Shown here: one piece after another, positions 7,527-9,211 of the stretch | Position numbering within the stretch: position 1 is the stretch's first letter | Layout: each line of letters starts with the position of its first letter | DNA from: Desulforegula conservatrix Mb1Pa | Lineage (GTDB): Bacteria; Desulfobacterota; Desulfobacteria; Desulfobacterales; Desulforegulaceae | Direction of reading: 5' to 3' | Assembly (NCBI RefSeq): GCF_000426225.1 | Contig: NZ_AUEY01000028.1 | Span: forward strand, 1 to 45,517 | DNA length: 45,517 nt | Notes under the pieces: model-generated | The model's database searches: none | What the model saw: only the letters and a program-made list of their open reading frames with translations | Told to the model about the DNA's origin: nothing | Position numbers and translations under genes: made by a program

Positions 7527-8282
7527 CTACATAAACTGATCAGGATAATAAACCTCCAGAAGAAAAAGCCCCAGTGGCGGCGCAGTCGGCCCAGCCTTAG
7601 TCCTGTCTTTCGCGGCAATGATGTCCTTGATTTCTTTTGGTCTTGTTCTGCTCATACCTACATCCACAAGCGTGCCGACAATATTTCTGACCATATTCTG
7701 CAGGAATCCGTTTGCAGTTACTTCAAAATGGATCATGCCGCCGTCTGCTTTCTTGAAAACCGCAGAAGAAATATGTCTTACAGTATGGAGCCTTGGGCTT
7801 CCCGCATTCTCAAAGGATTTAAAATCATATTCACCGACAAAGTATTCCGCAGCTTCTTTCATTGCTTCAAGATCAAGTCTTTTCTGAAACTGCCATATAT
7901 ACTTTCTTTTGAACGGATCACGAAGAATTCTGTTCAAAATGCAGTATCTGTATGTTTTTCCAACGGCGTCAAACCTTGCATGGAAGCCATTAGCCACTTC
8001 TTTGCATTCGGTAATGCAGATATCGCCAGGAAGAAGACCATTAAGAGCCCTGAAAAAATCACCCGCACAGAGACCTGTATCAACGCTGAAACTTGCCACC
8101 TGACCCAACGCGTGAACCCCGGAATCTGTTCTGCCTGATCCTTCAATAATAACCTGCTGCCTTGTTATCATGGAAAGGAGCTTTTCAAGTTCGCCCTGAA
8201 TGGTCGCAAGGCCGGGTTGTCTCTGCCAGCCGTGATAATCAGTCCCGTCATACTGTATTGTCAGTTTAAAGGTCTTTTCCAT
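7527..8282 (-). CDS. truA: tRNA pseudouridine(38-40) synthase TruA
   Basis: TruA isomerises uridines 38-40 in the tRNA anticodon arm. The 251-residue protein begins with LTIQYDGTDYHGWQRQPG and carries the catalytic motif GSGRTDSGVHALGQ, with the nucleophilic Asp53. The conserved FHARFDAVGKTYRY segment and the C-terminal FLQNMVRNIVGTL helix follow. The length is typical for bacterial TruA. It lies nine bases behind the stop of a tiny dual-CXXC gene on the same strand, so the two are probably cotranscribed. In many relatives truA lies with asd or leu genes; that linkage is absent here. Confidence 0.97.
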   Translation of the reverse strand: MEKTFKLTIQYDGTDYHGWQRQPGLATIQGELEKLLSMITRQQVIIEGSGRTDSGVHALGQVASFSVDTGLCAGDFFRALNGLLPGDICITECKEVANGFHARFDAVGKTYRYCILNRILRDPFKRKYIWQFQKRLDLEAMKEAAEYFVGEYDFKSFENAGSPRLHTVRHISSAVFKKADGGMIHFEVTANGFLQNMVRNIVGTLVDVGMSRTRPKEIKDIIAAKDRTKAGPTAPPLGLFLLEVYYPDQFM

Positions 8283-8291
8283 CAGATGTCA

Positions 8292-8489
8292 CTAAATCCT
8301 GTCAACAGGGATAAAAGCCAGCAATTCCTCAAGATAGTCGTCCATAAGGTCACCATATTTTTCCCTCGACATTTTTATGCCGCAATCCTTGCAGCAGATT
8401 GTTATTTCCCGTCAGCTGCGCTTTAGTACGAGTCTGCCACCGCACTCCGGACAATTGGCAATTTTTTTCATTCCTGCATTTTTTATCAT
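8292..8489 (-). CDS. small dual-CXXC protein with in-frame TGA, probable selenoprotein
   Basis: A 65-codon frame starts at ATG 8489 with AAGGGG 11 bases upstream. It contains CPECGG (residues 13-18), reaches a TGA at codon 26 (8412-8414), and continues in the same frame with CCKDCG and a helical acidic C-terminus ending VDRI before a TAG. The coding character is the same on both sides of the TGA: a zinc-ribbon-like pair of CXXC motifs is split by it, and the tail MSREKYGDLMDDYLEELL is typical coding sequence. After the TGA, TGCTGC (8396-8391) pairs with GCGGCA (8383-8378) around loop AAGGATT, 21 nt from the TGA, as in bacterial SECIS elements. I recall a family of small dual-CXXC (seleno)proteins annotated in related genomes. 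A simple nonsense mutation is the alternative. Confidence 0.72.
8378..8396 (-). promoter_or_regulatory. SECIS-like hairpin after the in-frame TGA
   Basis: A six-base stem, TGCTGC with GCGGCA (one G:U pair), closes a seven-base loop AAGGATT containing GG. The loop starts 21 nt after the TGA at 8412-8414. Bacterial SECIS elements sit just downstream of the UGA with a G-containing apical loop that SelB recognises. The stem is short, so this is suggestive only. Confidence 0.5.
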
Positions 8490-8671
8490 GGCACATAAAC
8501 CCCTTATGTTTTAAATTGACTCTTATATAAAAAAGATTATTACCTTATGATCTCATAACAACATATAAGAGAGCTGATTTGCGGTGATTTCCCTGACTTT
8601 GTCAAGTCAATAAAAGAACTGGAAAACTAATCATTCAAAAGGCCAAGTCATTTTTTTAAAGGAGTTCTCTA

Positions 8672-9211
8672 ATGCATGTTAATCAGCCGGGCGCCCATTA
8701 TGACCACATGCTGAAACAGACACGTCAGCACCATGTGCATTTAAGCACCATGGCAGACGTCAAGGCAAACATAATGCTCACAATATCATCAGTAATCCTG
8801 ACCATGTCCATGAAATATGTTTCAGATCCCATTTTAAAATGGCCTGCACTATGCATGATGATTTTTTGCCTTGCAACAATATCCCTTGCCGTATATACAG
8901 TTATGCCCAAAATCAACATATGGAGCAAAGAAGAAAAGAAGGCAAACCCCAAAAGCCCATTTTTCAACATACTTTTTTTTGCGGATTTTGTGCGTTTGCC
9001 GTATGATAAATACGCAAAACTGATGGAGGAAATGCTGAATGACCCATCAAAGGCCTATGAAGCCCAGATCAAAGAAATATACAGCCTTGGATGCTTCCTT
9101 GCATCCAAAAAGTTCAGATATGTTCAATTGGCTTACGCGACCTTTATATCCGGTATAATCCTGAGTACATTTACCCTGATTGCATCGCTTATAGTCGCCC
9201 AATATGTATGA
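8672..9211 (+). CDS. PycTM-like (DUF5706, Pycsar effector family) membrane protein
   Basis: A 179-residue membrane protein. The N-terminal segment HHVHLSTMADVKANIMLTISSVIL matches the start of the PycTM/DUF5706 domain, in which a D-x-KA motif precedes the first membrane helix. Predicted helices lie at about 34-50, 58-80 and 151-176, with a charged cytoplasmic stretch (KEEKKANPKSP and the EEMLNDPSKAYEAQIKEIYSL region) between the second and third. PycTM proteins bind cCMP or cUMP made by a PycC cyclase during phage infection and damage the inner membrane. No cyclase lies beside this gene: truA is upstream and argJ downstream. It may therefore be an orphan, act with a distant cyclase, or have another role. 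AAAGGAG precedes the ATG. Its TGA stop is also the first three bases of a repeat. Confidence 0.72.
   Translation: MHVNQPGAHYDHMLKQTRQHHVHLSTMADVKANIMLTISSVILTMSMKYVSDPILKWPALCMMIFCLATISLAVYTVMPKINIWSKEEKKANPKSPFFNILFFADFVRLPYDKYAKLMEEMLNDPSKAYEAQIKEIYSLGCFLASKKFRYVQLAYATFISGIILSTFTLIASLIVAQYV

Follow-up and report, generated by a model that had tools for sequence, protein, structure and literature searches.

The stretch of DNA analysed here (the window) is a 45,517-nucleotide contig of Desulforegula conservatrix Mb1Pa (NZ_AUEY01000028.1), and its minus strand carries a small gene (8292..8489) with 65 codons counted from the first ATG (8489-8487), an in-frame TGA (8414-8412) and a TAG stop codon (8294-8292). 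Translated with the TGA as selenocysteine (Sec, U), the frame yields 65 residues in which U26 lies between CPEC (residues 13-16, 8442..8453) and CKDC (residues 33-36, 8382..8393), the order of motifs being CPEC, RSU, CCKDC and an acidic tail. Both cysteines of each CXXC motif are invariant in an alignment of 40 family sequences (A1), and the two motifs probably provide zinc ligands. The initial annotation had proposed a tiny gene with an in-frame TGA between two CXXC motifs at this position and strand, and its frame and coordinates were borne out: this is a real gene of a sort that ordinary gene calling would miss or truncate. Upstream, the sequence AAGGGG (8500..8505, minus strand), by its appearance a probable ribosome-binding site, lies 10 nt ahead of the first ATG. 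The homologues are nevertheless matched better by a start at a second in-frame ATG (8471); exactly seven residues precede the first Cys in 31 of 65 matches from the same order, and six do so in the window protein when counted from ATG 8471. The homologue starts were assigned by a nearest-upstream-ATG rule, and because this rule is biased towards short forms the choice between 8489 and 8471 is kept tentative. Nine nucleotides past the stop codon starts truA (7527..8282, minus strand), which encodes tRNA pseudouridine(38-40) synthase (TIGR00071, 208 bits against a cut-off of 142.85).

The protein read with Sec matches the NCBIfam family NF041197, 'dual CXXC motif small (seleno)protein', at 67.9 bits (cut-off 40) over profile positions 1-53 of 53, and it has the feature of that family, a Sec or Cys residue flanked by two CXXC motifs. 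In a six-frame genome search the match of the gene scores 59.1 bits, and profile and protein searches of its own genome found this single copy. Two other assignments fell below their cut-offs, namely the Lar restriction alleviation protein (PF14354, 23.5 versus 28.6 bits; TIGR03655, 17.2 versus 39.6 bits) and the YfgJ-type double zinc ribbon (PF07191, 15.9 versus 25 bits). Matches of the window protein in PHROGs were weak only, and none of the 15 viral stretches that fit the single pattern used is a relative; the corresponding pattern search of contigs gave at least 14 relatives among the 593 stretches listed.

Within the window's order NF041197 is present (E <= 0.001) in 68 of 96 genomes, own genome included, and in 60 of 83 genera, and within the phylum in 112 of 395 genomes (E <= 0.001). 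No match was obtained in 28 order genomes; these include 12 from the group of 70 with a completeness of at least 90% and a contamination of no more than 5%. In 64 of the 65 order matches, conservation downstream of the UGA extends as far as a C-terminal [C/V][D/N]R[L/I/F/V]; the Cys of this tail is present in 59 (58 by this pattern, and L080 with the tail CDHF) and is replaced by Val in the window protein and five relatives. An additional variant of the family seems to be represented by two weak matches from two phylum genomes (L138 and L139, 25.5 and 22.6 bits), in which U lies within CUQG and SUQG.

The initial annotation had pointed to a family of small dual-CXXC (seleno)proteins in Desulfobacterota, and it does exist: it is NF041197, published as OS_HP3, and the gene described here is a new member of this already published predicted family. 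In the accessible part of PMC13188914, the sole paper retrieved by a literature search for NF041197, the family is listed twice in Table 1, under 'Predicted with high confidence' and not under 'Experimentally verified'. The first entry is OS_HP3, which has the motif RxU and stems from the Olavius symbiont study of 2007 (Zhang and Gladyshev 2007, ref. 60 of PMC13188914), and the second is 'Hypothetical protein DW', with the motif GxU, from PMC12013277. As far as the accessible texts go, OS_HP3 of Desulfosarcina widdelii is the one known selenoprotein that the program of PMC12013277 missed in the genomes examined there, OS_HP3 in PMC9312934 bears the accession that PMC13188914 assigns to DW, and PMC2398784 lists OS_HP1 and OS_HP2 but not OS_HP3. 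The accessible literature on the family gives no function for it, and a search for a zinc-ribbon selenoprotein in Desulfobacter returned no paper.

The window gene, with its RSU, fits the RxU subfamily: it shares with OS_HP3 the two CXXC motifs and Sec at RxU, and the sole difference noted is that OS_HP3-type relatives in the order mostly have the C-terminal Cys where the window protein has Val. The relatives with GxU, which from their motif we infer to be DW, match the same profile and, in those read, carry Sec at the same place between two CXXC motifs, but have GRU or a similar motif rather than RxU and lack the CDR[LI] tail. Unlike the GxU-type DW, the single match in the window's genome is of the RxU type.

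For the column of the in-frame TGA, 114 matches were read, comprising the window, all 72 further matches from its order and 41 phylum matches, the last picked mainly as weak second copies or matches without a stop and hence not a random draw. The initial annotation had named homologues with Cys or TGA in this column as support, and UGA or Cys is indeed found there in 113 of the 114. The exception (L110), which has neither and scores 22.9 bits, below the NF041197 cut-off, was dropped, leaving 95 matches with UGA and 18 with Cys. When the order count is confined to the window's type (n = 65: the window, L039 to L101 and L103, leaving out the eight matches L102 and L104 to L110), UGA occupies the column in 64 and Cys in one (L040); L051, which has UGA, belongs to the same genus as this Cys copy. 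Sec is almost certainly inserted at the in-frame UGA (8412..8414).

In bacteria, a SECIS element is a hairpin situated just after the UGA with a G in its apical loop. Folding of the window gene reveals a SECIS-like hairpin of this kind (8378..8396, minus strand), with 8 bp and the loop GGA (8388-8386), which spans nucleotides 16-34 after the UGA and is formed by the codons of the second CXXC. The initial annotation had placed a stem-loop, suitably positioned for a SECIS, 21 nt after the TGA; the distance differs slightly, as the stem starts at +16 and the apical G lies at +24. The stem-loop itself is real and is selected across the family, but the window hairpin taken alone is not significant (z-score -1.5, with 17 of 200 shuffles folding equally well), and 31.5% of synonymous recodings of the window gene alone reach 8 bp. 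It is the family-wide comparison, and not the window gene by itself, that places the hairpin beyond chance.

For this comparison, synonymous recoding was applied 200 times to the 16 codons that follow the UGA or Cys codon, weighted by codon usage in the flanking frames. Among the 95 UGA members, 88 have the apical G (37.0 expected), 69 have a stem of at least 6 bp (16.4 expected, recoding maximum 25), and 69 combine such a stem with the apical G (7.0 expected, recoding maximum 14), the other 26 lacking this combination in the pairing frame tested. For the 18 Cys members the corresponding counts are 7 (5.5 expected), 2 (1.5 expected) and 0 (0.2 expected, recoding maximum 3), respectively. The apical G falls on the third position of the codon that follows the first Cys codon in the second CXXC, and is retained whatever this codon encodes (Arg, Lys, Thr or other). 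A cruder energy test was weaker and pointed in the same direction, with a mean z of -1.11 and 21 of 95 below p 0.05 for UGA members against -0.41 and 2 of 18 for Cys members (Mann-Whitney p 0.025). Since kinship makes the sequences dependent on one another, neither set of values amounts to exact probabilities. As far as sequence comparison can tell, selection at the RNA level maintains the hairpin in the majority of UGA members, and in no Cys member that was read. At gathering scores, Rfam matched only a tRNA in the window.

The genes of the Sec machinery, selA, selB, selC and selD, for which a check of the genome had been recommended, were all found in the form of SelA (604.6 bits, cut-off 267.9), SelB (381.4 bits, cut-off 242.25), SelD (366.3 bits, cut-off 125) and tRNA-Sec (77.6 bits, cut-off 47). 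The SelD gene (L174, C8:28714-29640) is itself a Sec gene, with one in-frame TGA (ASG-U-AAK by eye). Of the 96 order genomes, 93 have SelA, as do all 53 genomes searched for it on account of their family matches, 27 via matches without a stop (Cys was read in 17 of these) and 26 via UGA matches, which rules out that the Cys forms arose through loss of the Sec machinery.

For the protein, an AlphaFold2 model with Cys in place of Sec (15 sequences, numbered from the second ATG) has strands at residues 13-18 and 23-27 and a helix at 36-52, with a mean pLDDT of 75.5, no residue reaching pLDDT 90 and a pTM of 0.48. Sec is residue 20, at the turn between the two strands, while C7 and C10 precede the first strand and C27 and C30 lie at or past the end of the second. 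At the level of secondary structure, this arrangement is suggestive of a zinc ribbon whose hairpin carries Sec at its tip, apart from four likely zinc cysteines. The best match of a profile search against the PDB is a putative cytoplasmic protein (2jrp_A, 4.5e-05), and the weak matches include YfgJ (2jne, 20.6 bits) and RNA-polymerase subunits. Foldseek returned no match in the PDB at E <= 0.001; above that value, zinc-finger chains and chains of RNA-polymerase subunits appear in its list alongside various others. YfgJ (2jne; PF07191) resembles the window protein in its four-Cys pattern and weak profile match, although, unlike the latter, it is not known to contain Sec.

Taken as a whole, the gene very probably encodes a genuine selenoprotein that belongs to NF041197 (OS_HP3) and adopts a zinc-ribbon fold. 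SelB would bring Sec-tRNA to the in-frame UGA, and the product, a protein of 59 or 65 residues that is probably cytoplasmic, would hold a structural zinc by the four cysteines of its two CXXC motifs. From the position between the CXXC motifs the initial annotation had suggested redox or metal chemistry for Sec, which we likewise only infer. Our best guess is a reactive selenolate working on a partner: Sec at the tip of the beta-hairpin, flanked by mostly basic residues, could be exposed and carry out redox or nucleophilic chemistry on some partner, although an exposed redox selenolate in particular is a tentative proposal, with the odds somewhat against it. In most relatives the near-C-terminal Cys could resolve the oxidised selenium. 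For the window protein this Cys is ruled out as an obligatory partner of Sec, the position being Val, and another thiol would consequently be needed there for resolving. Finger-like zinc ribbons of transcription factors carry catalytic residues at a comparable place, and by this analogy the hairpin-tip Sec might reach into a large partner, which we consider rather unlikely.

Alternatively, instead of being a separate reactive group, Sec might bind the metal as its fifth ligand or contribute to a metal-transfer site. Its position between two CXXC motifs and the tail Cys of 59 of the 65 order matches would agree with such a role, whereas the order of elements in the predicted model puts Sec at the end of the hairpin, far from both CXXC motifs, and the window protein and five relatives have Val instead of the tail Cys; this role is unlikely.

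The surroundings of the gene recur within the order, where argJ, rluB, a permease (which we take to be AEC-type) and truA are found around it, argJ and rluB often on the other side from truA; the names argJ, truA and pseudouridine synthase derive from family searches of the window's copies only. Where argJ is nearby it is the immediate next gene in 24 of 26 loci. In the window, a Pycsar-effector-like protein (8672-9211, plus strand; PF18967 70.9 bits, PADLOC PycTM) is encoded between the selenoprotein gene and argJ. Among the GxU-type matches, 5 of 20 (L121, L124, L129, L131 and L133) have a dsrP-like gene on the opposite strand at a distance of one or two genes, which for L124 is backed by the scores of its neighbours (DsrP 492.9 bits, DsrJ 169.5 bits) and for the other four by the gene cluster alone; the GxU subfamily could be tied to sulfate respiration. 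Because the neighbours differ in the loci read outside the order, the recurrence is interpreted as shared gene order and the neighbourhood was set aside as a guide to function; no neighbour gene in the neighbourhoods compared indicates a partner.

The close spacing of truA raises the idea that recoding of the UGA serves mainly as a selenium gate, in which a lack of Sec would lead to an early stop and a fall in truA translation. Besides the 9 nt of the window, 16 of the 65 order matches have a predicted truA frame that begins no more than 36 nt from where the family match ends. The truA cluster, however, lies one to four genes downstream in 38 of the 65 and is not among these genes in the remaining 27 (some contigs end there), no member of it occurs near the 41 phylum matches read, and the protein itself is strongly conserved, which together render a gate highly improbable. 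Another highly improbable alternative is that the TGA is a true stop, in which case a 25-residue peptide would be made and the remainder would be a decayed remnant or a chance frame: the standard code does terminate at TGA and the window hairpin alone is not clearly better than shuffles, but the sequence evidence argues strongly against it, given a family in 60 of 83 order genera with almost all matches continuing past the TGA, a second CXXC invariant in 40 aligned sequences, and only TGA or Cys at the column of 113 of 114 matches.

What is added here to the published family is the controlled test of the hairpin and the placement of Sec in a zinc ribbon, neither of which is described in the accessible text of the papers on it. 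The comparison of Sec and Cys members provides quantitative, internally controlled support for UGA recoding in a family, widespread within the order (68 of 96 genomes), that had been listed as a prediction only. If a zinc ribbon with Sec at its tip does reach into a large partner, it would represent a new selenoenzyme architecture that is not thioredoxin-like.
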